DNA of 64,000 nt from Streptomyces sp. NBC_00102 (lineage in GTDB: Bacteria; Actinomycetota; Actinomycetes; Streptomycetales; Streptomycetaceae). This document shows, one piece after another, positions 17,992-44,543 of this stretch (position 1 is the first letter of the stretch; each line of letters starts with the position of its first letter). A program made the translations under genes and the position numbers. The DNA is taken from contig NZ_JAPEMC010000001.1 of NCBI RefSeq assembly GCF_026343115.1, positions 2,914,001 to 2,978,000 of the forward strand, given 5' to 3'. Below the pieces are notes generated by a model. The model worked only from the letters and a program-made list of their open reading frames with translations. It had not been told where the DNA came from and did not search any database.

Positions 17992-18095
17992 ACGGGCTCC
18001 GCACGGGCGTGCGCGTCCGTACTCCGCCCGGCGGACGCGCCGGGGGAACGAGGAGATCGGGGGGAACGGGGGGAACGGGGGGGGGGAACGCGCCG

Positions 18096-18797: not shown

Positions 18798-18992
18798 GGG
18801 TGCCTGCCTCTCCTCGGATCCTCGGACCGCCGCGCGTCCGTCATGCTCCCAGCCGCACCGGCCCTCCGGGAGCATCGGGCCCGCCCCGGGCGCGCGGTCA
18901 CCTCCCACCACCAGGCACTATCGGTGTCCGGGGTGGCATCCGTACGCCGCCTCCGGGCCCTGGGGCCCGCCGCCCACCTCTCCGGAGCACGC

Positions 18993-20219: not shown

Positions 20220-20220
20220 G

Positions 20221-20316
20221 CGGGGCAGCTCCTACCGCCGCACGCGGTCGGTCGAGGCAGCTCCTACCCCCGCACGCGGTCGGTCGGGGCAGCTCCTACC
20301 CCCGCACGCGGCCGGT
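20221..20316. repeat. Three 32-bp tandem repeats at the ridA 3' end
   Basis: Units at 20221-20252, 20253-20284 and 20285-20316 differ by only a few bases (core ggcagctcctacccccgcac). The third unit overlaps the last codons and stop of the RidA gene (20296). The first two repeat this end region beyond the stop and abut the aminotransferase stop at 20219. Confidence 0.9.
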
Positions 20317-20721
20317 CGGGATCACCGCGAACGCCTCGACCTCCATGACCAGTTCGGGCCGGTACAGGGCGACCACCTGTACCGCCGAGCTGGCGGGCCG
20401 GCGCTCCACGTCGACGTAGAGGTCGCGCACGGCGCGGACGGCGGGCAGGTGCGCGACGTCGGTGACGAAGTAGGTCAGCTTGACGACGTCCGCGAACGTC
20501 CCCCCGGCCGCCTCGAGGCAGCGGTTCAGGTTCGCGAAGACCTGCCGTGCCTGCGCGTCGGCGTCACCGGGGCCGACGACCTCGCCCGCCTCGTCCAGGG
20601 CGACCTGGCCGGAGATCGCGACCCACTGCCCGACGCCGGTGACGACGTGCGTGTAGCCCACGGCGGGCAGGACTCCCTCCGGGGCGGCGATGTGCGTGAG
20701 GTGCGTGTTCGTGTTGTCCAT
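20296..20721 (-). CDS. RidA family protein (reactive intermediate deaminase-like)
   Basis: A 141-residue YjgF/YER057c/UK114-fold protein. Conserved features: GQVALDEAGEVVGPGDADAQARQVFANLNRCLEAAGG, split here as the GQVALDE strand and QARQVFANLNRCLEA helix; then FADVVKLTYFVTD, and the C-terminal RPELVMEVEAFAVIP. RidA enzymes hydrolyse enamine/imine intermediates in the cytoplasm. In the active subgroup an Arg precedes the ligand-binding Glu; here RPELVMEVEA resembles the Rid2-7 types, where activity is unproven. Convergent with the PLP enzyme gene. Its 3' end lies inside tandem repeats. Confidence 0.9.
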   Translation of the reverse strand: MDNTNTHLTHIAAPEGVLPAVGYTHVVTGVGQWVAISGQVALDEAGEVVGPGDADAQARQVFANLNRCLEAAGGTFADVVKLTYFVTDVAHLPAVRAVRDLYVDVERRPASSAVQVVALYRPELVMEVEAFAVIPTGRVRG

Positions 20722-20769
20722 ACCGGAATCTTCCCCGAAGCCTGACGCTCCGTCGCACCACCCTGCGCT

Positions 20770-20807
20770 GCGCCGCCCCCTCCGGCACGAACCGGAAGGG
20801 GCGGCGC
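20770..20807 (-). terminator. Hairpin terminator after the L,D-transpeptidase-like gene
   Basis: A stem gcgccgcccc(ct)ccgg / ccgg(a)aggggcggcgc lies 14 bp beyond the stop at 20821, between it and the downstream ridA start. Confidence 0.75.
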
Positions 20808-20820
20808 GGTGGCGACGGTG

Positions 20821-21966: not shown

Positions 21967-22258
21967 GAGGGTTAGCCCTTTCGTGTCATGTCTCCGAACG
22001 GGCCCGTGACGGCCAGGACATGGCTCCGCCACGGACTTCTCGGGAGGGGGGCGGCCGGGAGGTCCTCACCGGCTCGCCACCACTGTGAACCACCGGCCGG
22101 GGCGGATCTACGCTGTGCGCGGTACCGGTCATACACGCATATACACGGACCTCGTGCATGGGGTCTGACCTGGTACTTCAGATCGCGCGAGATCCCTCGC
22201 GACACGACATCGACATGGCAGACCGGCATGACAGCCGACCCGACGGAGGGAGCGACCG

Positions 22259-23290
22259 GTGGACCCCCAGCCGCCCGACGACGCCGACACCAGCCCGGAA
22301 CCCTCGACGCCCGCAGGCGTCGAGCTGGGGCAGGTCCTCAAACGGTGGCGCGAGGAGAGCAACCGGAGTCAGTCCGTGGTCGCCAGGAAACTGGGGACCA
22401 GACAACCGACCGTCTCGCGCTGGGAGTCCGGCACCAGCCTGCCGACCACCGAGGTGATCCGTGCGCTCTGGCGACTCCGTAACCGGGAGGCCGATCCGGT
22501 GAGCGGCGACACCCAGCTCACCGAGGCCCTCGTCCTGCACCGGCGGGCGGAAACGGAACGCAACCGGGCCCCGGTACCGGTGGCGGCCGTGCCGACCGTG
22601 CCGACCGTGCCCGTAACGCCTCCCGCACCGCCCGCCGAGCCGCAGGCGGACGTGGCGAAGATGGCGGAGGCACCGAAGGCGGGAACCGGCCGGAGGAGGA
22701 CGGCAGCCCGGTCGCTCCTCGCCGTCTGCGGGCTGACGGCCCTCCTCGGACTGGTGTTCCTGGCCCAGCACTTCGCGGGCTCCGCGCCGTCCGGCGGTAC
22801 GGAACTGGCCCCGGCGGCGGGCGCGGAAGCCGGGACGGGGGCGTTGGCCGGTACGGGGGCGTTGGCCGGGGCGGGGGCGTTGGCCGGAACGGGGGCGACG
22901 GCCCCCGCGACGGCCGCCAAGCCCTCGCCGCCCGTCACGTGCCGCGGTGACTCGTGCACCTCGGTGGAGCCGAAGGGGAGCGTCTGCGCGGGGGACGCCG
23001 TAACCGCTTTCACCGGCCGCCGCTACGGCGTGCTCGTGGAACTCCGCTACAGCCCGTCGTGCCAGGCGGCCTGGGCCAAGATGCAGGGCGGCTCGCCCGG
23101 AGACCGGATCATGCTCACCCTCTCCCACGACGAGGAGAGCGCGCAGGAGTACCGCCAGCGGGACGGAAAGGACGCCCATACCCCCATGGCGCACGTGGTC
23201 GACCTCTCCGTCGTCCGCGCCTGCGCCATCGTGGAGGGCCGGGGCACCGTCTGCGCCACCAAGGCCGCCTCACCCGTCACCCGGCCCTGA
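22259..23290 (+). CDS. HTH-DUF2690 membrane-anchored regulator-like protein
   Basis: A 343-residue protein. An N-terminal XRE-type HTH (about residues 22-75: LGQVLKRWREESNRSQSVVARKL...QPTVSRWESG) is followed by a Pro/Ala linker and a single membrane helix (SLLAVCGLTALLGLVFLAQHF, about 152-172). Next is a GALAGTG repeat linker and a C-terminal cysteine-containing DUF2690 domain (VTCRGDSCTSVEPKGSVCAG ... VELRYSPSCQAAWAKM). The layout suggests a cytosolic DNA-binding head linked to an extracytoplasmic sensor domain with disulfides. Such proteins are common in Streptomyces but uncharacterised. GTG start at 22259 with ggaggg upstream. Divergent from the cell-wall L,D-transpeptidase-like gene, a plausible target. 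Confidence 0.88.
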   Translation: MDPQPPDDADTSPEPSTPAGVELGQVLKRWREESNRSQSVVARKLGTRQPTVSRWESGTSLPTTEVIRALWRLRNREADPVSGDTQLTEALVLHRRAETERNRAPVPVAAVPTVPTVPVTPPAPPAEPQADVAKMAEAPKAGTGRRRTAARSLLAVCGLTALLGLVFLAQHFAGSAPSGGTELAPAAGAEAGTGALAGTGALAGAGALAGTGATAPATAAKPSPPVTCRGDSCTSVEPKGSVCAGDAVTAFTGRRYGVLVELRYSPSCQAAWAKMQGGSPGDRIMLTLSHDEESAQEYRQRDGKDAHTPMAHVVDLSVVRACAIVEGRGTVCATKAASPVTRP

Positions 23291-23399
23291 CGACGATCGG
23301 CGGCGGACCGGGGCGAGGGGTGGCGGGGCGGTGGGCCGCGGGACCGGGGTGCCCCGGGATCGCGAAGCCGCGGCATGCGGAAGTGCCCACACTGGGTGA

Positions 23400-23721
23400 A
23401 TGAGTAGCCCGGTGAGCGAAGAGCACGAGGACGACGAGATCGGAGACCTGCGGAGGGAGGTCGCCGGCCTCCTGCTGAACCACGTCTACGCACCGCTGCT
23501 GGAAGACCAGCACGTACGGGGCGTCCTGCCGGCGCCATCGGGGGCCCCTGCGGTCCGGGTCGCCCTCGGCGACAGACGTGATCGCCGCCGACGTACGCCC
23601 CGGAGGTGCGCTCACCGCCCTCCTGGCAGCGCTGCCCTCACTGCTGGGCGAAGAATGGCGGGCCTCGGGCGCCACCGACGACCCGCACTGCCGGTACCTG
23701 GTGGACCTCACCGGCTGGTGA
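23400..23721 (+). pseudogene. Frameshifted small conserved gene
   Basis: The first 58 codons from ATG 23400 read like a real protein (EEHEDDEIGDLRREVAGLL, NHVYAPLLEDQHVRGVLPAP). Then the frame degenerates into Arg-rich sequence, while the next frame reads DVIAADVRPGGALTALLAA, LPSLLGEEWRASG and HCRYLVDLTGW before a TGA at 23719. Skipping one base near 23570 (ggcgac-a-gacgtg) joins the two into a continuous protein of about 107 residues. This is either a true frameshift or a sequencing error. Function is unknown; no motif is recognised. It sits 108 bp after the HTH-DUF2690 gene and is convergent with the HAD gene. Confidence 0.65.
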
Positions 23722-23761
23722 ACCGGCACAACGACCGCACCGCCGCCCGAACTGGCTGGAA

Positions 23762-24430
23762 TCAGCTCTGCACGGCGACGGTCGCCGTCAGCCCGAGCAG
23801 GCTCTCGAGCTCGGCGACCGCGGTGTCCTCGTCCGTCGCGAGGACGGTAGTGATCCCAAGAGCCTCGGCAGGCGGAAGGTTGACCGGATGGTCGTCGACG
23901 AACACGCACGACGTTCCGGGAAGGCCGAGGCGGTCCAAGGTCAGTTGGTAGATCGCCGGGTCCGGCTTCGCCATGCCGACCACTTCGGAGATGACGTGCA
24001 CGTCGAAGAGGTCCCAGATACCGACGTGCTCGTACGGGTTGAAGGGGGCAAGACCGAAGCTGTTCGACAGGAGTGCGAGCCGGTGGCCCGCCTCCTTGGC
24101 CGAGCGAGCGAGGGCCGCCATGCGAGCTGCCGGCGGCACGTTGAACCACGCGCGGCCCATCAGATTCACCGGGTCGACGTCCGCGCCGAGCAGAGCGGCT
24201 GTCCGGGCGTTCCACTCGACCTGACCGAGCTGACCGATCTCCAGCGCCGCATAGAGGCGTCGTCCTTCGGCGGTGTCGTTGAGAGTGGCGCGCCACGCCT
24301 CCGCGTGCAGGCCCTCCGCCTCGGCCCAGAGGCGGAGGGCCGGCCGGGGATCGGCAGTAAGCACTCCGGCGAAGTCCAGGATGAGCCCGCGCGGGGCTGT
24401 GGGCTCGGGGGTACCGGCGGGCATCGGCAT
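23762..24430 (-). CDS. HAD family hydrolase (haloacid dehalogenase-like)
   Basis: A 222-residue HAD hydrolase. Motif I reads LILDFAGVLTADPRPAL: the nucleophile is Asp, but the second Asp of DxD is replaced (DFAG), as in haloacid dehalogenase/epoxide hydrolase-like subgroups that are not classic phosphatases. Other motifs: LALLSNSFG (II), AKPDPAIYQLTLDRLGL (III, Lys) and CVFVDDHPVNLPPAEALGI (IV). The reaction could be dehalogenation or an atypical phosphohydrolysis. ATG at 24430 was chosen as the start with ggagagg upstream; ATG at 24424 or 24460 are alternatives. It is divergent from the gene at 24790 across 360 bp. Confidence 0.88.
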   Translation of the reverse strand: MPMPAGTPEPTAPRGLILDFAGVLTADPRPALRLWAEAEGLHAEAWRATLNDTAEGRRLYAALEIGQLGQVEWNARTAALLGADVDPVNLMGRAWFNVPPAARMAALARSAKEAGHRLALLSNSFGLAPFNPYEHVGIWDLFDVHVISEVVGMAKPDPAIYQLTLDRLGLPGTSCVFVDDHPVNLPPAEALGITTVLATDEDTAVAELESLLGLTATVAVQS

Positions 24431-24789
24431 GGTGGCGAACGTCCTCTCCGTCGACCTCATGGAAACGCTACCCGCGACGAGGCGGCGAGAGAGCTCCCGT
24501 GGCCGACACCGCGCATGGCTGACATCACCGGCAGTGTCAGGGAGTCGATCGCGCACCCTCGCGGAACCCGCTGGTCCACGGCATCGGCCTGCCTCTGCCA
24601 CGCGGACACAAAGCCGTACTACCGAGCCGGCTCGACAGGCGGCATCCGTCAGTCCAGTCCAGTCCACTAACGTCCAGATAACCCAGGGAGTAACGTGCAT
24701 TAGCGGGTAGACACGGCAACTTGGCTTGTGTCAGAGTCAGTTCTGCCGCCAGACAAGGAACGGTGGCCGCACACCCTTGGGGAGGGTTC
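24431..24789. other. Divergent intergenic region between HAD hydrolase and hypothetical gene
   Basis: A 359-bp gene-free stretch that must hold the promoters for both flanking genes. I see two near copies of taacgt (in ctaacgtccag and gtaacgtgcat, around 24668-24694) about 20 bp apart, but no clear -10/-35 pair or riboswitch. Confidence 0.4.
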
Positions 24790-25311
24790 ATGACGCAGGA
24801 CACACAGCTTCAGTTCGTCTCGGTGCCGGTACCGAGCCAGTACGTCACGCAGGTGTACGCCTATCTCGCCGAACTGGCCGGGACCACGGCTGTTACTCCC
24901 CCCGCCTCCGGGGTTCCGCCGGTGGACCCGCCGGAGCATCCGACGGCCGACTCCTCGGACGGCGGCTCGCTTCCGGTGGTGGAGTGGACCGTGGAGGATC
25001 TCCGCCGACTGGCCATCGAGCCGTTGAGCTCGGTCCAGGCGGTCGCCCGTGTACTGGACCTCCTGGCGAAGCAGCCCGACACCCGGGTGAGCTACACCGC
25101 GATCGCCCGCCACTTGGAGATCGAGAAGAAGAACCTGCAAGGCAACCTCTCGGCATTCACCCGCACCGTGCGCAAGCACTACAAGCGCCGCAACTGGCCG
25201 ATGACGTGGGCAGAGGCCCTCACAGACGAGCCGGGGCTGAATTCGGAGTTCTTCTACACGTTGAGCGCACCGGTCGCCGAGCGCTGGCTCCGGGCTCGCG
25301 CCCAGAGCTGA
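24790..25311 (+). CDS. Conserved hypothetical protein with helical DNA-binding-like C-terminus
   Basis: A 173-residue cytoplasmic protein. The N-terminal third is Pro-rich after an initial hydrophobic/aromatic segment (YVTQVYAYLAELAG). From about residue 75 it becomes helical and charged: WTVEDLRRLAIEPLSSVQAVARVLDLLAKQP, split by a Pro, then YTAIARHLEIEKKNLQGNLSAF and FTRTVRKHYKRRNWPMTW. The last block resembles a winged-helix recognition region, so DNA binding is possible but unproven. ATG at 24790 follows ggggagggttc. It is the last chromosomal gene before the tRNA-Thr island and its terminator side faces attL. I do not assign a family. Confidence 0.7.
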   Translation: MTQDTQLQFVSVPVPSQYVTQVYAYLAELAGTTAVTPPASGVPPVDPPEHPTADSSDGGSLPVVEWTVEDLRRLAIEPLSSVQAVARVLDLLAKQPDTRVSYTAIARHLEIEKKNLQGNLSAFTRTVRKHYKRRNWPMTWAEALTDEPGLNSEFFYTLSAPVAERWLRARAQS

Positions 25312-25412
25312 TCTGCCGGACGGGGTGAGGGAGCGGGTCGAGTCGCGCCTTCACCTCCCGCCGGCGGCGCGGCCGAGCACGCTGATCGCTCCCAGCGCAT
25401 CCCCTGAACGAC

Positions 25413-25453: not shown

Positions 25454-25496
25454 GAGCCCCCTGTCGGATTCGAACCGACGACCTACGCATTACAAG
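25454..25496 (-). repeat. attL: 43-bp duplicated 3' end of tRNA-Thr
   Basis: This 43-bp block is identical to 43119-43161 and equals the tRNA-Thr 3' half from the anticodon loop through the T-arm and acceptor stem. Identity stops abruptly on both sides (gcg / tcc before it, ggcc / tgcg after it). It is the left boundary of the genomic island. Confidence 0.93.
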
Positions 25497-25812: not shown

Positions 25813-27051
25813 ATGAACGCGCAAAGCCCCTCGTCGGATGTACTAGAGGTTCCTCCACAGCGTGCCTCTACCGCTCGGCAAGAGCAAGCTACGGCCGAGG
25901 GCCTCAGAGATGGATCCCATACTCAGCCCGCCAGACCAAGGCGGCAGTTGCCGTTGCTCAAGGATCGCGCGACTACGTTGGTCTGGGGTAGGCGACGGGC
26001 CGCAGCTCGCCGTGAGGCCGAGAAGGCAATCGCTGACCTTAGCAAGGCAGCGAACCGCATTGGAATCTCCAGGCCCATGCCGAGGTCAGTACACCTGGCC
26101 GTGCGTCGGGCGCATGCAGGTCGCCGCATCCCATTTCGGATCGTTCAGATGACCCTTGTGCTGTATGCCACTGTTTGGGCATGGCCGGTGCTGCGGGCAC
26201 TGGGCAAGGCTGGCGCCGTAGTGTGGCAGCAGGGGCCGGACCCCACTACATGGTCGAGCTTGGCTGGAGCAGTCCAAAGCTGGACTCATGGGTCCCCCGA
26301 CTACGTTGCCGGCCCCGCCATGCTTTGGCTCATTGCGTCGGTGCCCATTGGCCTGGCCGTGGTGGTGATGACGTATTTCGGCCCCCTCGTGGCCGGCTTC
26401 CTCGCATTTCGGGGCCGTTACCCCGGGCCGCTGGCTGACATGGCAACTGGTGCCCTTGCGTACCGCTACAACCTCACTCTCGTCGCTGCGGAAGCGGTCG
26501 TGGCATGTGGTGAGGCGTACGGGGCGGGAAACGGAGGCCGCGGAGCCCAACGTATGCGCAGCGTGGGCGCGGCCGTGCGTGACGTCGAGGCCGCTGTATG
26601 GGCGGCACGTCAGACCCGAGGGGTTACTCCAGGCCGTCGCTGGCACCGCCGCAAGGCGTTGCACCGACATGCAGGACAGGTCGTAGCGCGTCTTCGCGTG
26701 GCAGAGGAACGTCTCGACGTAGATCCTGCTGCAGCATTGCGCGAACTCGGCGGCCTTCTGGTCACTGTGGCTGAGCGTTACAGCGATGGGCGCGTCGGCG
26801 CACTGCTCGACGAGGCCGAGCTGACCGACGTCACTCCGGCCCGCGATCGTGAAGTGCTGCGACTCGTAGCTGTCGCAGGCCTTACTGCTGTAGGCGCTGC
26901 CCTTTTGTCCATGAGCGGTTTACCGGAGGGAGCGATGGGGCCGGCCATCGCGGCTGTGGGCCTGTGCGCTGTGGCGCTGGTCTACCGGCGACGCGCCCTG
27001 AAGATGCTCGAGATCCTCCCGGTTCCATTCGGTAACGGCGGGCAGCAATGA
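25813..27051 (+). CDS. Multi-pass membrane protein of unknown function, possible defence component
   Basis: A 412-residue protein with a basic cytosolic N-terminus (KDRATTLVWGRRRAAARREAEKA). It has about four membrane helices: MTLVLYATVWAWPVLRAL, AMLWLIASVPIGLAVVVM into YFGPLVAGFLAF, and a C-terminal pair LRLVAVAGLTAVGAALL and AMGPAIAAVGLCAVALVY. A soluble helical loop of about 140 residues (AVRDVEAAVWAARQTRG, VARLRVAEERLDVDPAAALREL) separates the pairs. I recognise no family. Codon 370 is TTA (26920-26922), so full translation needs the bldA leucine tRNA. It precedes the kinase-helicase gene in the same direction, with a small overlapping ORF between, so it may be part of the same operon. 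ATG at 25813 has a weak ribosome-binding site; the start is uncertain. Confidence 0.7.
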   Translation: MNAQSPSSDVLEVPPQRASTARQEQATAEGLRDGSHTQPARPRRQLPLLKDRATTLVWGRRRAAARREAEKAIADLSKAANRIGISRPMPRSVHLAVRRAHAGRRIPFRIVQMTLVLYATVWAWPVLRALGKAGAVVWQQGPDPTTWSSLAGAVQSWTHGSPDYVAGPAMLWLIASVPIGLAVVVMTYFGPLVAGFLAFRGRYPGPLADMATGALAYRYNLTLVAAEAVVACGEAYGAGNGGRGAQRMRSVGAAVRDVEAAVWAARQTRGVTPGRRWHRRKALHRHAGQVVARLRVAEERLDVDPAAALRELGGLLVTVAERYSDGRVGALLDEAELTDVTPARDREVLRLVAVAGLTAVGAALLSMSGLPEGAMGPAIAAVGLCAVALVYRRRALKMLEILPVPFGNGGQQ

Positions 27052-27335
27052 CCGTCATCCGGGAGCGAGGCGGGCTACTACACCATGGGCGGCTCACACG
27101 TCGCCCCCGTGTGCGAAGCGCGTTCTGCCGACGCCGAAGGGCTGACTGCAATCACGCCTCGTTGCCTAGGTCAGGGAAAGCATCTGTCTCGCAGAACGAC
27201 TCCGCAAAAGTCATCGCTCGCCGAGTCCTCGCTGCCTCCGGGCAAACTCCTGACCCGAGGGGAAACGACTGGCAAGATGGCTACTTGGGTGCGCTGCGCG
27301 GCAGCGGGGGAGCAAGGAGCAGTGGGTGGGAATGA
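27048..27335 (+). CDS. Possible small overlapping ORF between membrane protein and kinase-helicase
   Basis: A 95-codon frame starts with ATGA overlap on the membrane-protein stop and ends 9 bp inside the kinase-helicase gene, an arrangement typical of translational coupling. The C-terminal half (AKVIARRVLAASGQTPDP, NDWQDGYLGALRG) is protein-like; the first half is Arg/Cys-rich and less convincing. Codon use is mixed, including CTA and TTG. It could be a real 95-residue protein, a truncated gene, or chance. No family is recognised. Confidence 0.35.
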   Translation: MTVIRERGGLLHHGRLTRRPRVRSAFCRRRRADCNHASLPRSGKASVSQNDSAKVIARRVLAASGQTPDPRGNDWQDGYLGALRGSGGARSSGWE

Positions 27336-30300
27336 CGATCAACGGCCGTTTTCTGTTGCTCCCTCAGGAGGCGCGACTAGGAGGTCTATCTGAGGTTCGC
27401 AAGGCCGTGGACATCAAGAGTGCTGGCGGTGAGCACGTCGCTGTGAAGCTACTCAAACAGCGCGAGGACGACGCGATCACTCGGATCTTCCTGGAGCGGG
27501 AGACCTCCGCGCTCAAGGCACTGAACCACCCTCACATCGTACGGATGCTCGATTCCGGTTGGGATCAAGGGTTGGAGCGGTACTTCATCGCCCTGGAGTG
27601 GATTGACCGCAGCCTCAAGGACGAGATGGCAGACGGCCGCCCCCTTGACTGGTCGGCCTACTTCACGCGTACAGCCAGACCGCTGGTTTCCGCGCTCGCG
27701 TATGCCCACGAGAAGGAGATCGAGCACCGTGATCTGAAGCCGGGAAACGTCCTGCTGACCAGTGACGGCACGGTGAAGCTCGCCGACTTCGGGATCGCCA
27801 AGATTCTGTCCAAGGCCGCGGCCGTGACCGACGAGACGGTAGCGGACTTCCGGTCCGCCCTATACTCGCCGCCCGAGCAGAGTGAGGCAGTCCCGTACGT
27901 CCGTGACGTGTACGCCTATGCGGTCCTGGCCATTCAGGTCCTCTCTCGCAGCCAGGCACGTGACTACCACGATTTGGCGACAGTCCTCGACGGTCTGGAA
28001 CTCGACACCGAGGTCCGCAATGTCCTAAGAACTTGCATCGACTTCGACCCTAAGAAGCGTCCAGCCAACGCTATCGTCCTGGAGCACCGGCTCCTGGAGG
28101 CCGAGCGGGTCTGCGAAAACCGTGATGCCCGCCAACGCAACTCCCTCTGGCTGAAGATGACCCGTCGCGCGGCCGAAAGCCTCAGCGCCGCCCCGGCCAG
28201 CGAAGAGATCGACTGGGACGCTGTGAAGAACACGGTGCTGGCGGACATCTCCGGCACCGTGCACGTCGACTACGGCTACAACGCGCAGAGCGACGAGGTC
28301 GACACCGGCACGGTGCGAGTGTTCGGCCAGAGCCTGTTCCTACGCCTGGTCAACGACGAGGGTCAACGTGACCGGTGCGTAATCGTCTCAGCGGAGGAAC
28401 GAGCAGAGGAATGGATGGCCAAGCGCCGTGCGTCCGCCCTCAAACTCGGCCCCATCCTCACCTGGACGTTCAACGACCCCGGCGAGGACCCGGCGTACGA
28501 CGGCCTCAACCTGCTGCTGGACAGCCTCAATGCGGAACTAGATGCGCGCGAGACCCTGGCCAAGGAGGGTAAGCGCCAGCAGCTCGGCGACCTATTCGAC
28601 GGCTGGCGCCGCGTCCTGGAAGCCCGCGAGGAGGTGGCGGCTAACGGACGGCAGCCGATTCAATACGAACGGTTGGAAGGCGGCGGCCGCACCCGGGTCT
28701 TCCATCTGGCCGCGCCCGATACCACCGCGGAAATCGGCGAAGAGTGGTCGGTCGCGGAGTACCCCTACAGCCGACCTATCGACCGTGGTGAAATCACCAA
28801 CCGTACCGACGACACCGTCGTCCTGCGGATGACGCGTCCCCAGGCCGTCCTGCCTGCCCGGGGTGTGCTGCTGCCCTTTCTCGGACCCAGCCAAAACGCG
28901 ATCAACCGGCAGCGCGACGCGCTCACAGCGGTCGCCGCCGAGCAGACTGCCAATCCCGACCTGCGGCAGATCATCGCAAACCCCACGTCCGTTGAGGTTG
29001 GTCCGCCCACCGAAGTCACCACCTGGGTCCGCGCCGATCTCGACTCAAGCAAACGAGATGTCGTCGCCCATGCCCTAGGCACTCAGGACCTGCTGCTCGT
29101 AGAGGGGCCACCCGGCACCGGCAAGACCACCGTGATCGCTGAGATTGTCGAGCAGACCCTCAGTCGGCACCCCGCCGCGCGCATCCTCATCGTCAGCCAG
29201 ACCCACATCGCCATCGACAACGCCCTCAAGCGTCTTGAAGACGCAGGCATCACCGAACTCGTCCGCCTCGGCCGCGTCGACGATCCACGCGTCGCAGAAA
29301 GCGCCCAGCCGCTGCTGCTCGACCGGCAAGTCAAGAAGTGGACCCAGGGCGTCCGCACGCGCGCAGAACGGCATCTGGAGAATGTGGCCGCCAACAGCGG
29401 CCAGCAGCCCAGCCACCTCAAGGCGGCCCTGGTGCTGGAAGAACTCGCTGCCGTGGCCGCCAACCTCGCCCACGTGACAACTCGCCTCGACGAGCTGGCG
29501 AACCAGCCTGTGCCTGAGCGCACCACCTCAGCCAGGGAGCTCGGCGAGGAAGTCGTCACCACCCGGGCCCGCCGAGAGCAGCTCCTCGAACAGCGGGCGG
29601 AGCTGTTCGCCGACGTGCAGACAATGCTCGACGGCGAGCTCACCCTCCGCGAGGAAATGAGTGCCGCCGACGCCCGCGACGTCGTCGAGGTACTTCTCGG
29701 CCCGGCCGGGCCCGGACGGGAACTGATGCACCTGCTGAGCCTGCAGGGCGAATGGCTGCAGCGTATCGGCACCGACCAGAACCTGATCGCCGGCTTCCTG
29801 CGCACCCGGCGTGTCATCGGCGGGACCGCGCTCGGATTTCTCGGTCACCCGGCGGCCCGGGACCTCGAATTCGACCTGTGTATCTTCGACGAGGCGTCCA
29901 AAGCGACTGCCACCGAGGCGCTGGTGCCGATGGCCAGGGCCAAGCGGTGGGTGTTAGTCGGCGACACCAACCAGCTGCCTCCCATCGATGAGGATCTGCT
30001 GCGCGACGAGAAGATCATGGCCGATCACCAGCTTATCCCTGAATTGGTGAAGACCACCCTGTTCCAGTACTTCGCTAACTCCACCAAGGCCCCCGTCAAG
30101 CATCTACTGCGCGAGCAATACCGGATGATTCCGGCGATCGGCAACATGATCAGCAGCTGCTTCTACGACAACAAGCTGATCTCGCCGAACGATCATGCCC
30201 TTCCCGGCTACAGCACGGTCAACAAGCCCGTTCTCTGGCTGGACACCAGCGCCCTACCGAACCGCCGCGAGGACGAGCAGTCCGCCGCGCAGACCAGTAT

Positions 30301-30754
30301 CTCCAACCGTCTTGAGGGCCAGCTCGCCATGCGACGCCTGGAAGTGATCGACCGGGCCATCGACAAGGGTGTGATCAAGACTCCCAACGGCAAGCGCCTC
30401 GATGTCCTGCTGATCGCCCCCTACGGTCGCCAGGTCGAAGAACTCACCAAGCGCCTAGCCTCCTTGAGGCTCAAGCACATCGCTCCAGAAGTACTCTCCG
30501 TCGACGCGGTACAGGGCCGAGAGTGCGATCTCGTCGTGTTCTCCGTGACCCGCAGTAACCTCAGCGGCCGCTTCGGATTCCTTGGTCAGCCGTACTGGCG
30601 CCGCATTAACGTCGCACTCTCCCGTGCCCGCTACGGCCTGATTATCGTCGGCGATGCCGGCTTCTGCCGCAGCAAGCCAGGCGCTCTGCGCGACGTCCTC
30701 GACTACATGAGCGGCCACCCGGAAGACTGCGAGATCCGCAATGCCTACCTCTAG
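27326..30754 (+). CDS. Ser/Thr kinase-SF1 (COG1112-like) helicase fusion, Mokosh type I-like MkoA
   Basis: A 1142-residue fusion. The N-terminal Hanks-type kinase (about 5-270) has Lys41 (VAVKLLK), catalytic loop HRDLKPGN at 134-141 and DFG at 154-156, but a degenerate Gly-rich loop (EARLGGLSEVRK). A linker of about 290 residues precedes a Upf1-like superfamily 1 helicase: Walker A GPPGTGKT 594-601, Walker B DEAS 855-858, motif III VGDTNQLPPI, LREQYRM, and C-terminal SVDAVQGRECDLVVFSVTRSN (21 residues, beginning SVDAVQG) and RRINVALSRAR. A coiled-coil insertion (about 690-790) splits the helicase. The fusion plus the downstream PLD gene matches what I recall of Mokosh type I anti-phage systems. 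Codon 877 is TTA (29954-29956) within WVLVGD. GTG at 27326 follows aaggag with 6-nt spacing. Confidence 0.88.
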   Translation: MGMTINGRFLLLPQEARLGGLSEVRKAVDIKSAGGEHVAVKLLKQREDDAITRIFLERETSALKALNHPHIVRMLDSGWDQGLERYFIALEWIDRSLKDEMADGRPLDWSAYFTRTARPLVSALAYAHEKEIEHRDLKPGNVLLTSDGTVKLADFGIAKILSKAAAVTDETVADFRSALYSPPEQSEAVPYVRDVYAYAVLAIQVLSRSQARDYHDLATVLDGLELDTEVRNVLRTCIDFDPKKRPANAIVLEHRLLEAERVCENRDARQRNSLWLKMTRRAAESLSAAPASEEIDWDAVKNTVLADISGTVHVDYGYNAQSDEVDTGTVRVFGQSLFLRLVNDEGQRDRCVIVSAEERAEEWMAKRRASALKLGPILTWTFNDPGEDPAYDGLNLLLDSLNAELDARETLAKEGKRQQLGDLFDGWRRVLEAREEVAANGRQPIQYERLEGGGRTRVFHLAAPDTTAEIGEEWSVAEYPYSRPIDRGEITNRTDDTVVLRMTRPQAVLPARGVLLPFLGPSQNAINRQRDALTAVAAEQTANPDLRQIIANPTSVEVGPPTEVTTWVRADLDSSKRDVVAHALGTQDLLLVEGPPGTGKTTVIAEIVEQTLSRHPAARILIVSQTHIAIDNALKRLEDAGITELVRLGRVDDPRVAESAQPLLLDRQVKKWTQGVRTRAERHLENVAANSGQQPSHLKAALVLEELAAVAANLAHVTTRLDELANQPVPERTTSARELGEEVVTTRARREQLLEQRAELFADVQTMLDGELTLREEMSAADARDVVEVLLGPAGPGRELMHLLSLQGEWLQRIGTDQNLIAGFLRTRRVIGGTALGFLGHPAARDLEFDLCIFDEASKATATEALVPMARAKRWVLVGDTNQLPPIDEDLLRDEKIMADHQLIPELVKTTLFQYFANSTKAPVKHLLREQYRMIPAIGNMISSCFYDNKLISPNDHALPGYSTVNKPVLWLDTSALPNRREDEQSAAQTSISNRLEGQLAMRRLEVIDRAIDKGVIKTPNGKRLDVLLIAPYGRQVEELTKRLASLRLKHIAPEVLSVDAVQGRECDLVVFSVTRSNLSGRFGFLGQPYWRRINVALSRARYGLIIVGDAGFCRSKPGALRDVLDYMSGHPEDCEIRNAYL

Positions 30755-32153
30755 CCCTGCCTTCGGCGACGACAGCCTCTTGGCCCTCCGCTTCCACAAC
30801 ACTCGTCCCGGACTCGAACTGATCCAGATCGCGGACGCCGCACTGCCCGTCGCCCGGATCACCGCCGAGGTCCTCGCCCAGGACAGCAAGGACCTCCCGC
30901 TCATGGAGGAATTTGTACTGCGGCTGGTCGAGCACAACGTGAGCAGTGCGCGTGGCATTGCCGGCCTGCTTGGCCTGCCTGAAAATATGGTCGAGCGGAC
31001 CATCGCCGTGCTGTTCGGTTCAGATGACCTTAAATGGGCCCGCCCCACCGCAGCAGACGCAGACCGGGCCCCCGGTCTGCGTCTCACCGACAAGGGTCAT
31101 CTCACCGCTCAGAAAGCCGCTGCGGTAGCGCCCGTGCGGGTCAACCAGCCCCTCGTCTATGACCAGATGCTGTGGAAGGTAGCCCCCTACGACCGCCGCA
31201 CCACCATCCCGCGCGGGCAGGCCGAGGAACACGGCATGATCATGCTGCCCGTGGCGCAGTCCGGGCCCGTCAACGACGGAGCCATCACCGCCGCGGAAAT
31301 CACCGCTCTGCTCCGCGAGAACGGCAACAACAAGCGCGAAGTCCTCCAGGTCAAAGGCATCTCCCAGGCCCCAGCTCGCCGTGTTCTGCCAGTCAAACTC
31401 CTGGTGTACGCCGACCCAGACCGTACCGACGTCGAAGTCGGCATCGTCGTTGACGGCGAACTCAGTCAGGCGCACGAACTCGCCCTCATCGGTCACGGCG
31501 GTGCCAAGGCTCTCGGCATCACCGTGGCGCCACCCCCAGAACGCCCTCTCCTGGACCCGGACCTTGAAAAGGCCCGCGTGCCGCTACAGGAGGTCACCCA
31601 GCACCGTGTAGAACAGGCCGCGTTCCAGCTCGGCGCTCAAGCGCCGACGCCCGGCCCTCCGGCAGTTCAGCGGCGGCCTCAGGCAGACGAGATCCGAGCC
31701 ATCGGCGTCTTCGAGCACCCGGACGTCCTTCACGACGCACTCACCAACGCTCGCCGCCGAATCCTAATCATCTCACCATGGATTAAGAACGCGATCATCA
31801 CCACCGACTTCCTTAGCAACCTTGAACGACGGGTCAACCAAGGCGTCAAAGTAGACATCGCCTACGGCTACGAAGAGAACGACACCAAGACCGACTCGGC
31901 CTCCGTCCGTAAACTCACCAACCTCGCCGACCGCTACCGCGACAAATTCAGCTTCACGCGCCTGAAGAGCACTCACGCAAAGGTTCTCGTCTACGACGAC
32001 GTTTGGGTGACCACGTCCTTCAACTGGCTCTCCTTTAAAGGTGACCCCGAACGCACGTACCGAATGGAAGAAGGAAGCCTCGTCCGTAGCCGCCAGATCG
32101 CCGATACCCAGTACACCCGGTATCTTGAGTTGGTCTCCGACCATCGCAGATAA
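30741..32153 (+). CDS. PLD-family nuclease-like protein, Mokosh type I-like partner
   Basis: A 470-residue protein overlapping the helicase gene by 14 bp. The N-terminal 125 residues look like a winged-helix region (FVLRLVEHNVSSARGIAGLL ... LRLTDKGHLTAQ). The middle holds an uncharacterised beta-rich domain, and a Pro/Gln linker leads to a C-terminal phospholipase-D-type domain. That domain has ILIISPWIKNAIITTDFL and one HxKxxxxD motif, His412-Lys414-Asp419 (STHAKVLVYDDVWVTTSFN). A single HKD per chain implies dimerisation to form the active site, as in Nuc/BfiI-type nucleases. Beside a COG1112 helicase it would be the nuclease effector, acting on nucleic acid unwound or sensed by the helicase; that role is inferred. 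Confidence 0.85.
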   Translation: MPTSSPAFGDDSLLALRFHNTRPGLELIQIADAALPVARITAEVLAQDSKDLPLMEEFVLRLVEHNVSSARGIAGLLGLPENMVERTIAVLFGSDDLKWARPTAADADRAPGLRLTDKGHLTAQKAAAVAPVRVNQPLVYDQMLWKVAPYDRRTTIPRGQAEEHGMIMLPVAQSGPVNDGAITAAEITALLRENGNNKREVLQVKGISQAPARRVLPVKLLVYADPDRTDVEVGIVVDGELSQAHELALIGHGGAKALGITVAPPPERPLLDPDLEKARVPLQEVTQHRVEQAAFQLGAQAPTPGPPAVQRRPQADEIRAIGVFEHPDVLHDALTNARRRILIISPWIKNAIITTDFLSNLERRVNQGVKVDIAYGYEENDTKTDSASVRKLTNLADRYRDKFSFTRLKSTHAKVLVYDDVWVTTSFNWLSFKGDPERTYRMEEGSLVRSRQIADTQYTRYLELVSDHRR

Positions 32154-32233
32154 CTGAGCTGTGTCTACTGAGGTTTAACTCGTGGTGTCGTTACGCAGAT
32201 CTGATGGTCAGGCCGGTCTCGGCGAGGCAGCCG

Positions 32234-32809
32234 TCAATGAGGTTTGCTGCGGTACTGGATGTGCCGGAGACCGCTGCGGACCGTGCGGATGAGATGTTCT
32301 GGCGTGGAGAAGGCGACGTTGGAGAGCCAGCCGCGACGTAGCAGGGACCAGATGCCCTCGACGGGGTTGAGGTCGGGGGCGTAGGACGGCAAGTAGAGGA
32401 TGGTCAGCCAGTCACGGGATTCGGCGAACTCCCGTAGACCTGCGGCCTTGTGGACGTTGAGGTTGTCCCAGATGAGGACGATCGGGCCGCCGAGTTGCTG
32501 GTGGGCTGCGATCAGCAGGTCGCGGTAGTCGCGCCAGGAGAAGCTTTTGCGCCCGTCCCGGTTGCCTCCGTCCCGTCGCGGCCGGTAGATCAGCCGGGAG
32601 CGGTGGCCGGGCTTGTAGCAGGTCGGGGCGGCGATCGATATCCGTCTGCGCGAGCGGCCACGGACCCGCACCACCGGGGTCCGCCCGCGCTGCGACCAGG
32701 TCCTTGCGTGCGACGGCGTCATGGAGAAGCCGGCTTCGTCCTCGAAGACCAGCCATGCTCCACGGGCCGCCGCTAGCCTTCCGCGCGGGGCCACACCTCC
32801 TTGACCCAC
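32234..32809 (-). CDS. IS630 transposase, DDE catalytic part (orfB)
   Basis: Carries the three catalytic residues of the IS630/mariner type: Asp in WLVFEDEAGF, Asp in VLIWDNLNVH and Glu in DLNPVEGIWSLLRRG. It lies downstream of and overlaps (32773-32809) the HTH part in the -1 frame; the natural product is presumably an orfA-orfB frameshift fusion made near 32775-32800. The frame as written starts at ATG 32809, inside the overlap. The catalytic triad is intact, so the copy may still be active. Confidence 0.85.
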   Translation of the reverse strand: MGQGGVAPRGRLAAARGAWLVFEDEAGFSMTPSHARTWSQRGRTPVVRVRGRSRRRISIAAPTCYKPGHRSRLIYRPRRDGGNRDGRKSFSWRDYRDLLIAAHQQLGGPIVLIWDNLNVHKAAGLREFAESRDWLTILYLPSYAPDLNPVEGIWSLLRRGWLSNVAFSTPEHLIRTVRSGLRHIQYRSKPH

Positions 32810-33258
32810 CCGGCCACCGCCTCGTCGTCCCGCTCCAGGGCACGACGGGCCGGGACCTGGCAGGACCAGCCGTTACGCACCAACAGCTTGCGGACACCCT
32901 GAATCGTGTACGTGAGGTGGAAGCGCCGTCCGATCACCGTCTTCACACGGTTCAGAGTCCAGCGCTGGTCCTCCCAGCCGTGCGCGGCCGGCCCTTTGGC
33001 CAGCTCCGACTTCAGCTGAGCGAACTGCTTCTCACTCAGCCGCGGCAGCGACGCGGGCCCCTGCGACCGCAAGGACCGTGGGCCGCCCTCGGACCACGCG
33101 TGACGCCACCGCTGCACCGATCGGACACTGACCCGCAGATCCCTGGCGATCGCCGTACTGCCCTCGCCACGAGCGAACCGCTCAGCCGCCTGGAGCCGTA
33201 ACTCCTCGCGCCTGCACTGCCGTTCAGCGGTCAACCCGCCACCCTGTGGATACCTCAT
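32773..33258 (-). CDS. IS630 transposase, HTH DNA-binding part (orfA)
   Basis: A 161-residue N-terminal half with a helix-turn-helix (AERFARGEGSTAIARDL, VSVRSVQRWRHAW) and the winged-helix-like WTLNRVKTVIGRRFHL segment that binds the terminal repeats. It ends at TAG in WPRAEG. A -1 shift on the cgcgcggaagg stretch continues into the catalytic orfB. It acts with orfB as one transposase. Confidence 0.83.
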   Translation of the reverse strand: MRYPQGGGLTAERQCRREELRLQAAERFARGEGSTAIARDLRVSVRSVQRWRHAWSEGGPRSLRSQGPASLPRLSEKQFAQLKSELAKGPAAHGWEDQRWTLNRVKTVIGRRFHLTYTIQGVRKLLVRNGWSCQVPARRALERDDEAVAGWVKEVWPRAEG

Positions 33259-33319
33259 CCTCCCGTGATACCGCAGGCAAGCACCCCCCGTCAGCCCCTA
33301 CGACTTCACGAGTTCAATC

Positions 33320-33864
33320 TCAGTAGAGGATCGCCCGGGCGACCCGTTGCTTCAGCCGCTCATCGGCAAGGCTCTCCACCGTGCGCCAAGCGGCATCCGT
33401 GACCTCTTCGGCCTGCAGTTCGCCGATGTTGGCGGTGTACGAAACAGGAAGCGGAAGTCGAAGTGCTGGTGGGCGGGCTCGTTCTTGGCCGGGTTGGCGT
33501 CGATGGGGTGGACGTCGATGTGCAGCGGGATCTCGCTGTGCGGGGTGACGACGTAGGGCGGGATGCCGGTCTCTTCCGCGAGTTCGCGGCCGGCGGCTTG
33601 CAAGAGCGTGTCGTCGGAAGGCTCGATGTGGCCGCCGGGCAGCAGCCATTTGCCGGTGGCGTTGTGGAGGATGTGCAGGACGCGGCCGTCGCGGCCCACG
33701 AGGATCGCGCCTGCGGTGGCGTGTCCCGGCAGGGACTTGCGGCTGGCGAGGTCGTTACCGTCGTCGAGAAGGCCCTGGACGACGGCGATCTCGCGCTTGT
33801 CCTCGGGGTGCTGGTCGAGGTACGCGGTGATGGTCGCGCGGATGTGGTTCGCCGTGATGGGCAT
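33320..33864 (-). pseudogene. NUDIX hydrolase gene with one-base frameshift and IS630 in its stop codon
   Basis: The frame from ATG 33864 (or coupled GTG 33873) has a NUDIX box: GGHIEPSDDTLLQAAGRELAEETGI, of the form Gx5Ex7REUxEExGI. A NUDIX enzyme cleaves nucleoside diphosphates linked to X. After HQHFDFRFLF the frame goes wrong, and the next frame continues SYTANIGELQAEEVTDAAW and ESLADERLKQRVARAIL. Adding one T (an A-tract at 33442-33444 on the plus strand) rejoins them. The stop TGA at 33320-33322 comes from the IS630 end; without the IS the stop is TAG at the same point. So one extra residue was gained but nothing was lost. It is the last gene of the five-gene minus-strand operon. Confidence 0.78.
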
Positions 33865-39003: not shown

Positions 39004-39024
39004 TGTCGGGACTGTAAAACGTTC

Positions 39025-40653
39025 GGCTCTGTTCCGTAGTCGGTGGTGACGGTCGGTGGGCAGTTATTGAAGCAGGATGCGGTGGCGGAGGAGGTCGAAT
39101 CCTGCTCGGCCGTGCATCTGTCGCATGATCTTCTTGGTTCGGGTGTTGACGCCTTCGGTCCGGCCGTTGTGGTGGGGCAGGGTGAGGCCGGCATTCACGG
39201 CGGCGCGGTCGAGTTCGAGGCCGTTGCAGAAGCTGTGCAGGTGGGGCAGGTCGGCGGTACGGACGGTAGTGATCCACTGGGTGAGCGCGTCGTGGTTGGC
39301 CTGGGCCGGGGTCAACAGCGCGGCGAACTCGCCAGTAAGCCGGGCGAGTGCCGTCATCTCCGGGCAGGCAGCGGTGAGGAGGCCGAGCAGGTCGGTGTCC
39401 TTGGTCCACAGGTGCTCGGGGTGAGTTAGCAGAAGCCGGGCGAGGCGGCGGGGAGTTGTGACGGGACGGTGGCCTTCGGCGCGGCCCTGGTTGAGGTAGC
39501 GGACCAGCAGGTTGGCACTGCCGGTGTAGCCCAGTTCCCTGATCTCGTCGAGGAGGTGGGTGACGGGCACGGCCGGGTCCTGCGCCCGTCGTTGACGCAG
39601 GTGGTCGCGGTAGGGGTCGACCAGCGTGGGCCTGTAGCGTGGGGTGATGCGATCGGCGGACGGTTCGGGGATGCGGGCGTAGCGCTTGACGGTGTTCAGG
39701 GCGAGGCTCAGTCTGCGGGCACATTCGAGTAGGCCGACGCCGGAGTCGAGGAGGGCGTGGACTTTGTGCCAGCGCTCGCGGATGGTCTGCTCGTGGATGC
39801 CGCCGGGCCGGGGCGGGTTGACGGTGGCCCAGCAGGGGGCGTGGGCCCGGACCTCGGCCAGGACCTTGTCGCACAGGTTCTGCCACAGATGCCAGCGGTC
39901 GCTGACCTGCACTGCGTCGGGCAGTGCCCGGCGGATCGCCTCGGCATAGGTGGCCGAGCCGTCCCGGCACACGACCTCGACCCCCTTCTTCGTGCGCAGC
40001 CATGCCTCCAGCGTGGCTGCCTCGCGGTCGGGCAGAACATCGATGCGCTCCCCGGTCTCGGCGTCGATGATGATCGTGGCGTAGCGGTGGCGGCGGCGCA
40101 GGGCGAAGTCGTCGACCCCGATCACCCGTGGGGCGGCCACCGTCGGGAGGGGGATGCGCCGCAGGAGGCGCAGGGCGGTGGCGTAGGAGAGGGGCGTGGC
40201 CAGGTACCGGGTGAGACGGGCGGCTGCCCGGCCGCATAACTCCTTGGCCACCTCTGAGACCTGGCTGGTCAGGCGCGTGGTGCGGCGTTGAAGGCGCTCG
40301 ATCAGCCCAGGGACTTGCTCGCGGAAGGTCTGTCGCCGGCAGCCCAGGACCGGGCAGACCAGGCGCCGCACCCGGACGCGTACTACGACCCGGCGGCCAT
40401 CGACCGGCACATCCGCCACCGTCCGGACGTGATACCCGTGCACCTTCCCCGTCGGTACCCCGCACACCGGGCAGGGCACCGGAACATCACGGGTCCGGGC
40501 GAGCACCCGGACTACCTGGCCGTCATCCACCACATCCTCGATGACCAGCGCCGAGAGTCCTGAAAACACCACGGCAACAAGGGAGTTGACATCTCGCATA
40601 TAACATCAACGACGCCTGTCACCTGCCGTCACCACCGACTACGAAACAGAGCC
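39025..40653 (-). mobile_element. ISL3 family insertion sequence
   Basis: Terminal inverted repeats: left ggctctgttccgtagtcg followed by gtggtgacgg, right complement ggctctgtttcgtagtcg followed by gtggtgacgg. They enclose one transposase gene. No clear 8-bp target duplication flanks the ends. The outer sequences themselves look like a further partial inverted repeat (aaacgttc / gctcgttt), so the element may have been involved in rearrangement. Its right end lies directly against the remains of the integrase gene, whose 5' part is missing. Confidence 0.85.
39064..40599 (-). CDS. ISL3 family transposase
   Basis: A 511-residue transposase. An N-terminal zinc-finger-like segment CPVCGVPTGKVHGYH with VCPVLGCRRQTF leads to an HTH region. 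The DDE catalytic domain has Asp in VIGVDDFALRRRHRYATI, Asp in VQVSDRWHLWQNL and Glu in HNGRTEGVNTRTKKIMRQM. Length and motifs match ISL3. It is intact, so the IS may still be functional. Confidence 0.92.
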   Translation of the reverse strand: MRDVNSLVAVVFSGLSALVIEDVVDDGQVVRVLARTRDVPVPCPVCGVPTGKVHGYHVRTVADVPVDGRRVVVRVRVRRLVCPVLGCRRQTFREQVPGLIERLQRRTTRLTSQVSEVAKELCGRAAARLTRYLATPLSYATALRLLRRIPLPTVAAPRVIGVDDFALRRRHRYATIIIDAETGERIDVLPDREAATLEAWLRTKKGVEVVCRDGSATYAEAIRRALPDAVQVSDRWHLWQNLCDKVLAEVRAHAPCWATVNPPRPGGIHEQTIRERWHKVHALLDSGVGLLECARRLSLALNTVKRYARIPEPSADRITPRYRPTLVDPYRDHLRQRRAQDPAVPVTHLLDEIRELGYTGSANLLVRYLNQGRAEGHRPVTTPRRLARLLLTHPEHLWTKDTDLLGLLTAACPEMTALARLTGEFAALLTPAQANHDALTQWITTVRTADLPHLHSFCNGLELDRAAVNAGLTLPHHNGRTEGVNTRTKKIMRQMHGRAGFDLLRHRILLQ

Positions 40654-40735
40654 GCTCGTTTGACAGACCCACCGTTGGCTGGCCGGCAAGCGGATCCGCA
40701 AGTCCGGCCTGAACCGCTACGAGACCGACGTCCGC

Positions 40736-41902
40736 GTGCACCTCAAACCGCACATCGGCGGCCGGCGCCTCGACCGGCTACGCGTCAGCCACCTCAGCGA
40801 GATGTTCACGGCCATCGCGGACGCCAACGCCGAGGCCCTGGAGCAGAACGCCCAGCGGCGATCAGCGGTCGATGAGCTGGCTGCTGTTCCGTGGAAGGGA
40901 TTGGAGAATCGCGCTCGCCGAAAGGCCCTCAAAGCGGCGATCGACGCGATGCCGCCCTACCGCCGCGTCACCGGTCCCTCGACGCGCCAGCACGTCAAGG
41001 CCACGCTCCGCGCCGCCCTGAACGACGCGATCGGCCAGCAGATCATCACGTTCAACCCGGCAGCCCACGTCGAGATCGACGCGGCGCGTAAGCCGAAGGC
41101 ACTGGTCTGGACAGACGAGCGAGTCGCCAAGTGGCGGCAGACCGGCGAGAAGCCCTCCCCCGTCATGGTGTGGACTCCGGAACACACCGGGGCCTTCCTC
41201 GACTTCGTCGCCGAGGACCGGCTGTACGCCATGTGGCACCTGATCGCCTTCCGCGGCCTGCGCCGGGGCGAGGCGTGCGGGCAGCCGTGGTCGGAGACCA
41301 ACCTCGACCGGCACTCCCTCACTGTCTCGGGCCAGCTCGTGCAGGACGGCTGGGACATCGAGGCGTCGGAACCGAAGACCGACAGCGGCTTCCGCGTCGT
41401 GGCGCTGGACGACGACACCGTCGGCGTCCTGAAGCGGCACCGCGAGCAACAGCAGGCGGACCGCGAGGCGTGGGGACCGGCCTGGGTGGATACCGGGCTC
41501 GTCTTCACTCAGGAGGACGGCTCCTGGCTCCACCCCGGCAAGGTGACCGACCTCTTCGAGCGTCTCGTCGCGGCCTCGGGCCTGCCACCGATTCGCCTGC
41601 ACGACCTCCGCCACGGAGCGGCCACCCTGATGCTCGCCGCCGGCATCGACGTCAAGATCGTGTCCGACACCCTCGGCCACAGCGATACCCGGATCACCCG
41701 TGACATCTACCAGAGCGTCCTCCCCCACGTCGGCAGGAGCGCCGCCGAGGCCACCGCCAAGCTGGTCCCGCTCCAGCGGAAGACCGAGGCGGAGGAAGCC
41801 GCCCGCAAAGTGGAGAAGGCCCGGAAGAAGGCCCAGCGCGCCAAGAAGGCCCAGGTCCTGTCGGCGAAGAAAGCGAAGCACAACGTGAGCCCCCAAGCCT
41901 AA
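40736..41902 (+). CDS. Tyrosine integrase, 5' end removed by the ISL3 IS
   Basis: The C-terminal catalytic domain is complete: Arg in FRGLRRGEACGQPW, HxxR in LHDLRHGAATLML, His in DTLGHSDTRITRDIYQSVL with the Tyr nucleophile, and a Lys-rich tail. Upstream of GTG 40736 the same frame still reads integrase-like sequence (HRWLAGKRIRKSGLNRYETD) back to an IS-proximal stop at 40661, so the N-terminal arm and part of the core-binding domain were lost to the IS. The 388-residue ORF as found should not be functional, although the catalytic domain is intact. In related elements this enzyme integrates at tRNA 3' ends, fitting attL/attR here. Confidence 0.9.
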   Translation: MHLKPHIGGRRLDRLRVSHLSEMFTAIADANAEALEQNAQRRSAVDELAAVPWKGLENRARRKALKAAIDAMPPYRRVTGPSTRQHVKATLRAALNDAIGQQIITFNPAAHVEIDAARKPKALVWTDERVAKWRQTGEKPSPVMVWTPEHTGAFLDFVAEDRLYAMWHLIAFRGLRRGEACGQPWSETNLDRHSLTVSGQLVQDGWDIEASEPKTDSGFRVVALDDDTVGVLKRHREQQQADREAWGPAWVDTGLVFTQEDGSWLHPGKVTDLFERLVAASGLPPIRLHDLRHGAATLMLAAGIDVKIVSDTLGHSDTRITRDIYQSVLPHVGRSAAEATAKLVPLQRKTEAEEAARKVEKARKKAQRAKKAQVLSAKKAKHNVSPQA

Positions 41903-43118: not shown

Positions 43119-43161
43119 GAGCCCCCTGTCGGATTCGAACCGACGACCTACGCATTACAAG
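43119..43161 (-). repeat. attR: 43-bp repeat within tRNA-Thr
   Basis: Perfect copy of 25454-25496; it lies in the 3' half of the intact tRNA-Thr gene and marks the right boundary of the island. Confidence 0.93.
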
Positions 43162-43194
43162 TGCGTTGCTCTGGCCGGACTGAGCTAAGGAGGC
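43120..43194 (-). tRNA. tRNA-Thr (UGU)
   Basis: 75-nt tRNA on the minus strand: acceptor GCCTCCT/AGGGGGC (one G-U), D-arm GCTC...GAGC, anticodon arm ACGCA-CTTGTAA-TGCGT with anticodon TGT, variable AGGTC, T-arm GTCGG-TTCGAAT-CCGAC, discriminator T; no encoded CCA. Its 3' half was reconstituted by the island (attR). Anticodon UGU decodes ACA/ACG threonine codons. Confidence 0.97.

Positions 43195-43406: not shown

Positions 43407-44543
<1,137 letters not shown>

Follow-up and report, generated by a model that had tools for sequence, protein, structure and literature searches.

A two-gene locus in the chromosome of Streptomyces sp. NBC_00102 is, judged by its sequence, a complete and apparently functional operon of the anti-phage system Mokosh type I, situated on a genomic island at a tRNA-Thr gene. 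It lies in a stretch of 64,000 nucleotides (contig NZ_JAPEMC010000001.1, positions 2,914,001 to 2,978,000; in the following called the window, with its first letter as position 1). The first gene, mkoA, encodes a Ser/Thr kinase fused to a helicase, and the second, mkoB, a protein with a phospholipase D (PLD) domain that bears a single HxKxxxxD (HKD) motif (Table 1). The locus is ordinary in itself, i.e., a further intact Streptomyces copy of the already known Mokosh type I.

Identity of the gene pair

A resemblance to Mokosh type I had been proposed from the bare letters of the window (the original prediction), with a hidden Markov model search of both proteins against Mokosh profiles as its check. 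In PADLOC, both proteins match: the product of 27326-30754 matches MkoA (PDLC03920) with E 4.8e-235 over residues 5-1138, and the product of 30741-32153 matches MkoB (PDLC03922) with E 1.1e-76 over residues 31-406 and a further C-terminal stretch. Together with the kinase domain and the separate PLD gene, these matches support the proposed identity; according to the accessible part of PMC11672841, type I has the helicase and the PLD domain in separate genes, together with a kinase domain, whereas type II consists of one fused gene. The type II profile (MkoC, PDLC03924) also matches, with its helicase half MkoA (E 1.9e-31) and with its PLD half MkoB (5.1e-18), but MkoC is one polypeptide, whereas the window possesses two open reading frames (ORFs) and a kinase. 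The best profiles outside Mokosh are PD-T4-6 for MkoA, more than 100 orders of magnitude weaker, and DrmC for MkoB (E 2.1e-6), around 70 orders weaker. PD-T4-6, a lone kinase, was rejected as the identity of MkoA, since it covers residues 5-221 only (E 1.2e-37 vs 4.8e-235), and so were DISARM DrmC (24.3 bits vs a cut-off of 133) and Dpd DpdK (22.4 bits vs a cut-off of 100) for MkoB.

Concerning the specificity of the MkoB profile, 3 of 14 control genomes match it at E 1e-10 and 9 of 14 at 1e-3, and 26 of 396 genomes of the phylum match it as well; it also matches a second place in the window's own genome. The phylum-wide matches lie mostly in the PLD half, and a long N-terminal match is found only in the window and in two other genomes (G107, G515). 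As the profile also matches ordinary PLD proteins, it is the N-terminal match and the neighbouring MkoA that carry the identification. The window resembles Mokosh type I as follows: it has an adjacent gene pair with a Ser/Thr kinase fused to a COG1112/Upf1-type helicase, and the N-terminal part of its separate PLD protein is that of MkoB. It differs in that its MkoB match skips profile positions ~391-544 and its protein has a single HKD, as do 116 of 121 sequences (here and in all motif counts, the window plus the 120 listed). The matched piece of 8 of 9 other proteins matching PDLC03922 contains two HKDs (the ninth piece is the N-terminal part only), and the profile may have been built from longer, two-HKD members. 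A table in the accessible part of PMC10952713 lists NERD for Mokosh type I; the best 25 of 29 Pfam matches (E up to 0.1) do not include the NERD nuclease domain (PF08378), and the pair is not placed in the NERD-bearing subgroup.

Domains, motifs and start of the operon

The gene layout of the original prediction, with two ORFs overlapping by 14 bp, was recovered, and all motifs that it had read in the two proteins are present: K41, HRD 134-136, DFG 154-156, Walker A 594-601 and DEAS 855-858 in MkoA, and a single HKD in MkoB, whose presumed winged helix follows a beta-rich stretch and has a MarR-like fold. The kinase domain of MkoA matches Pkinase of Pfam (E 1.1e-28) with a predicted PknB-like fold, and the helicase domain matches AAA_11/AAA_12; among the models' structural neighbours of the latter, RNA-bound IGHMBP2 is closest, followed by Upf1 and others. 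K600, T601, D855 and E856 are identical in all 121 sequences, and D136 and D154 are kept in 120; over all residues of K41/HRD/DFG, Walker A/B and the HKD, the count is 116 to 121, most exceptions being gaps. Of 1419 matches to the MkoA helicase region, the best 120 were listed, and 119 of these proteins also contain a kinase domain.

In MkoB, H412 and K414 are kept in 117 and D419 in 116 of the 121 sequences. Its structure is predicted with a mean local confidence (pLDDT) of 89.9, and in Foldseek the predicted PLD fold is matched best by two nucleases, NucT and Nuc; SauUSI and NucT also rank high in VIA. By sequence, PLDc_2 of Pfam scores 26.7 bits, slightly below its 27-bit cut-off, and a sequence search of MkoB against solved structures gave nothing below E 0.3. 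Coverage in the structure comparisons is sparse for residues ~265-415 of MkoA and for residues 1-48 and ~130-258 of MkoB.

The mkoA start at the GTG of 27326 is conserved: this codon is kept behind a ribosome-binding site like GCAAGGAGC in 12 aligned rows (the window and 11 relatives), among which an in-frame ATG six bases further on occurs in the window only. An ORF at 27085-27393 was not accepted as a gene, since it runs across the mkoA start and many insertions and deletions interrupt the alignment with the relatives in this upstream region.

Pairing, selection and spread

The 20 related loci compared (L010-L029) represent 17 distinct relatives, in 16 of which MkoB follows directly after MkoA; no other island gene of the window recurs consistently beside the pair in these 17. 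Distances among MkoA and among MkoB sequences agree closely (Mantel r 0.994, reached in 0 of 5000 permutations; 19 rows including one duplicate locus, L013 = L027), although relatedness inflates this value. The ratio of nonsynonymous to synonymous substitutions (dN/dS) is 0.03-0.26 in each of five segments compared between the window and six relatives, i.e., selection is purifying. From the conserved motifs, the dN/dS values and the agreeing distances, both genes appear to be selected as one unit.

A block common to the window and six close relatives (90-92% DNA identity) has its left edge at 27112-27161 and its right edge at 32155-32156. In the five named relatives (MkoA 96-97% identical) and in G068, the shared DNA thus extends from 165-214 bases before the start codon to 2-3 bases past the mkoB stop, and these edges suggest that the transferable unit consists of the promoter and the two genes. 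Within the genus, 10 of 199 genomes, including that of the window, match a kinase-less MkoA query (E 1e-20), one of them (G117) with a partial helicase only. A related pair (~75% identity) is found on three Streptomyces plasmid records, and MkoB relatives exist in 25 of 72,556 plasmid records; no MkoB match was found in the phage collection.

Natural variants of the operon

Twelve plasmid loci were examined out of the 25 records matching MkoB. In all six loci from Rhizobiales (L113, L117, L118, L119, L120, L121), the MkoB-like protein lacks the HKD and a PP2C phosphatase is annotated as the next gene (verified with Pfam in L113 only), followed in three of them by DUF3800. The HKD is kept in five of the other six, none of which has PP2C annotated next, in a gene table that is incomplete and has several hypothetical neighbours. 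K41, HRD, D154 and the Walker lysine of the helicase are kept in all 13 proteins (window included), whereas DFG reads DYG in the six Rhizobiales proteins and DFA in two Mycobacterium proteins, and the MkoA of Microvirga has S for G599 in Walker A. The Rhizobiales operons are similar to the window in gene order, in the N-terminal homology of MkoB and in the MkoA residues, which are equal at 18 compared sites except for DYG and the Walker A serine of Microvirga; they differ by the loss of the HKD and by PP2C and DUF3800, none of which is found in the window. Since the six loci belong to one order, HKD loss and PP2C may represent a single event.

Two mycobacterial plasmid MkoB proteins carry an S1 RNA-binding domain, that of M. 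gallinarum (L114, 4950-6719) by Pfam match (S1, E 1.2e-17) and that of M. marinum (L124, 5004-6857) by annotation; in the latter, the equivalent of H412 is V. A four-gene relative occurs in 4 of 199 genomes of the genus (L060, 3658-12454; L061, L109, L110), with a partial match in a fifth (G127). It comprises a split kinase, an MkoA-like helicase, a winged-helix protein that resembles the N-terminal part of MkoB and lacks the HKD, and an AAA protein that matches the PADLOC candidate PDC-M26A. The MkoB-like protein conserves RNNATH in 4/4 cases, which we take to be a HEPN-like motif (RNxxxH); no Pfam HEPN match was obtained in the one such protein scanned. A phosphatase-bearing Mokosh is not mentioned in the literature found, the search having excluded most subscription papers and apparently also the Mokosh discovery paper, and no publication combining COG1112, kinase and phospholipase D was found.

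The genomic island

A genomic island around the pair, also part of the original prediction, is supported by a duplicated attachment (att) site at tRNA-Thr, by a truncated integrase and by a drop in GC content. The 43-bp att repeat is part of an 86-bp stretch, 87% alike, that extends into the terminator. Between the att copies lie 17.7 kb with a GC content of 0.664, compared to 0.724 outside, which contain Mokosh, an IS630-type element, genes for NUDIX, adenosylhomocysteinase-like, ATPase, HTH, DUF218 and WbqC-like proteins, an ISL3 element and the integrase. The IS630-type element is situated around 10 bp downstream of the mkoB stop and leaves mkoB intact. Homology of the integrase to those of two relatives sets in abruptly at 40673, beside the ISL3 copy; the relatives' integrases have 160 residues ahead of the window's ORF start, and the window has counterparts for no more than the last 21 of these. 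With this N-terminal part missing, the island is probably no longer self-mobile.

Table 1. Features of the Mokosh operon and of its island in the window
Feature	Position	Strand	Remarks
Left att copy	25454..25496	.	43-bp exact duplicate of the tRNA-Thr 3' end; left island end
Conserved leader/promoter region	27112..27325	+	Ribosome-binding site GCAAGGAGC before the GTG start; block shared with six close relatives
mkoA	27326..30754	+	Ser/Thr kinase (~aa 1-260) fused to Upf1-like SF1 (superfamily 1) helicase (~aa 420-1142)
mkoB	30741..32153	+	Beta-rich N-terminus, winged helix, middle domain, C-terminal single-HKD PLD nuclease-like domain; PADLOC MkoB match
MkoB winged-helix domain	30885..31127	+	aa 49-129
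MkoB HxKxxxxD catalytic motif	31974..31997	+	aa 412-419; near-invariant in 121 sequences
IS630-type insertion sequence	32164..33326	-	Two overlapping ORFs; DDE_3 and HTH_33 domains; similar terminal inverted repeats; ends set by eye
ISL3-family insertion sequence	39024..40653	-	Transposase 39064-40599; ends set by eye from inverted repeats; adjoins truncated integrase
Tyrosine integrase, N-terminally truncated	40673..41902	+	ORF from 40736; Phage_integrase E 3.6e-17
tRNA-Thr (TGT), insertion target	43119..43194	-	Right att copy = 43119-43161

An att copy, Mokosh, a related integrase and a full tRNA-Thr are found in the same layout in G068 (integrase 92%, att fragment 85%) and in G042 (integrase 88%; tRNA-Thr CGT; att fragment 77% over 83 bp). 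Together with the window, this places Mokosh between an att copy and tRNA-Thr in 3 of the 17 genomes examined, a count in which drafts could hide an att copy on another contig; a weak att-like match (75%) exists upstream in L019. A different element occupies the same tRNA-Thr in G019, its integrase-side end being 88% similar, and in G009 a related integrase is found beside the tRNA-Thr site. In three of the six relatives compared, the chromosomal backbone to the left of tRNA-Thr agrees with the window; the agreement breaks off at ~17245, beyond which other variable DNA follows, and window positions 17245-25412, to the left of the island, show no colinearity with these three backbones. The tRNA-Thr site is thus a variable hotspot; among the six relatives, no clean empty site was found.

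With one Mokosh operon, the island looks like the carrier of a single defence system. A multi-system island was rejected, since the scanned ORFs (some small ones lay outside the scan) gave no other convincing PADLOC match, the only scores being E 4e-4 for a NUDIX and E 0.008 for an HTH protein. A 412-aa ORF (25813-27051) was considered as a third Mokosh gene and rejected, as it has no match in any of the 20 related loci, whose upstream DNA was compared over 10 kb in nine, 8 kb in L021 and less than 1 kb in the other ten; the ORF gave no acceptable family in Pfam (in a 498-aa reading), PHROG, PADLOC or NCBIfam. Two weak defence scores outside the island were likewise dismissed, SspA/DndA at 17814-20219 being explained by an aminotransferase domain and mad3 at 43407-44543 by an ABC ATPase. 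Also outside the island, the window encodes at 13962-14999 an APH_6_hur-type kinase (aminoglycoside/hydroxyurea resistance kinase family), with same-place counterparts in three relatives.

Possible mode of action

A helicase, a nuclease and a kinase in combination point to a helicase that senses, a kinase that gates the response and an MkoB that cuts, and it is fairly probable that the operon acts in this way, with RNA as the most likely target. The IGHMBP2/Upf1-like helicase of MkoA would bind aberrant phage nucleic acid and translocate on it; ATP-driven engagement together with kinase signalling, either autophosphorylation or phosphorylation of MkoB, would then switch on the complex. MkoB would be placed by its winged helix, its single-HKD domains dimerising to form one active site, and the dimer would cut the bound nucleic acid, such that the phage or the cell is stopped. 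RNA is favoured because of the structural neighbours of the helicase and the S1 domain on the M. gallinarum MkoB.

Published statements on the mechanism conflict, as far as the accessible parts of the sources go: Mokosh is said to degrade viral transcripts in PMC11291487, whereas a 2026 review (PMC12926258) counts it among the systems of unknown mechanism, and a table row in PMC10286901 puts it beside functional phage proteins (DNA polymerase, ssDNA-binding protein), apparently on account of escape mutations. The latter two weigh against the proposed mechanism, the table row fitting DNA-replication sensing as well, and so do several of the present results. Dna2, with this type of helicase fold, works on DNA, and DNA is also what the restriction enzymes of the PLD type (SauUSI, BfiI, NgoAVII) cleave. 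PLD folds that act on lipids or are no nucleases (phospholipase D, phosphatidylserine synthase, FAM83) reach scores similar to those of the nucleases; the substrate can therefore not be read from the fold. Furthermore, in L018, one of the 17 related loci, the helicase matches only in part and the compared DNA contains no MkoB, and the HKD loss of the six Rhizobiales relatives and of M. marinum, despite kept kinase and helicase residues, indicates that PLD cleavage is not universal.

A Mokosh type I acting on DNA is a possible, less likely alternative, in which MkoA would sense single-stranded or replicating phage DNA like GajB or Dna2-type helicases and MkoB would be a PLD DNA endonuclease. 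Besides Dna2 and the PLD restriction nucleases among the structural neighbours and the table row of PMC10286901, the MarR-like winged helix of MkoB, a typical DNA-binding fold, argues for it; the best helicase match being RNA-bound IGHMBP2 and the S1 domain of a mycobacterial plasmid MkoB argue against it, as do, in their accessible parts, PMC11672841 and PMC10013915, which speak of an RNA helicase, and the transcript degradation of PMC11291487, all without own experiments on this point. It seems rather unlikely that the kinase is the toxic output, phosphorylating host targets after phage sensing and thereby causing shutdown, with PLD cleavage as trigger processing or accessory. This would agree with the kinase residues kept in 13/13 proteins while the HKD is absent in the six with adjacent PP2C, and with the lone kinases PD-T4-6 that PADLOC lists as defence proteins. 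However, the Rhizobiales loci may count as one evolutionary event, and HKD conservation in 116-117 of 121 sequences of the window's branch, together with purifying selection on MkoB, indicates that the nuclease matters there. Very improbable is a pair for RNA quality control or housekeeping instead of defence. Relatives of Upf1/IGHMBP2 do function in RNA turnover in eukaryotes, but the patchy occurrence in the genus, the location on islands and plasmids and the matches to defence profiles speak against such a role.

Returning to a helicase sensor gated by the kinase, the variants allow a tentative generalisation: the kinase-helicase MkoA might be the conserved core, which senses and signals, and the nuclease an output that can be exchanged, the window representing the branch with a single-HKD PLD domain and the Rhizobiales PP2C and the RNxxxH four-gene forms representing others. 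If this were true, Mokosh would be an RNA-triggered, kinase-gated switch with swappable effectors, in which kinase and phosphatase set the threshold.

For Streptomyces, the locus constitutes one more well-conserved Mokosh type I, a cassette carried by an integrative element at tRNA-Thr. Beyond this, its value lies in comparison: kinase and helicase residues are retained in the loci examined, but the nuclease end varies, some loci adding S1 or PP2C, and these natural variants make the sensing target of Mokosh and the role of its kinase directly testable.

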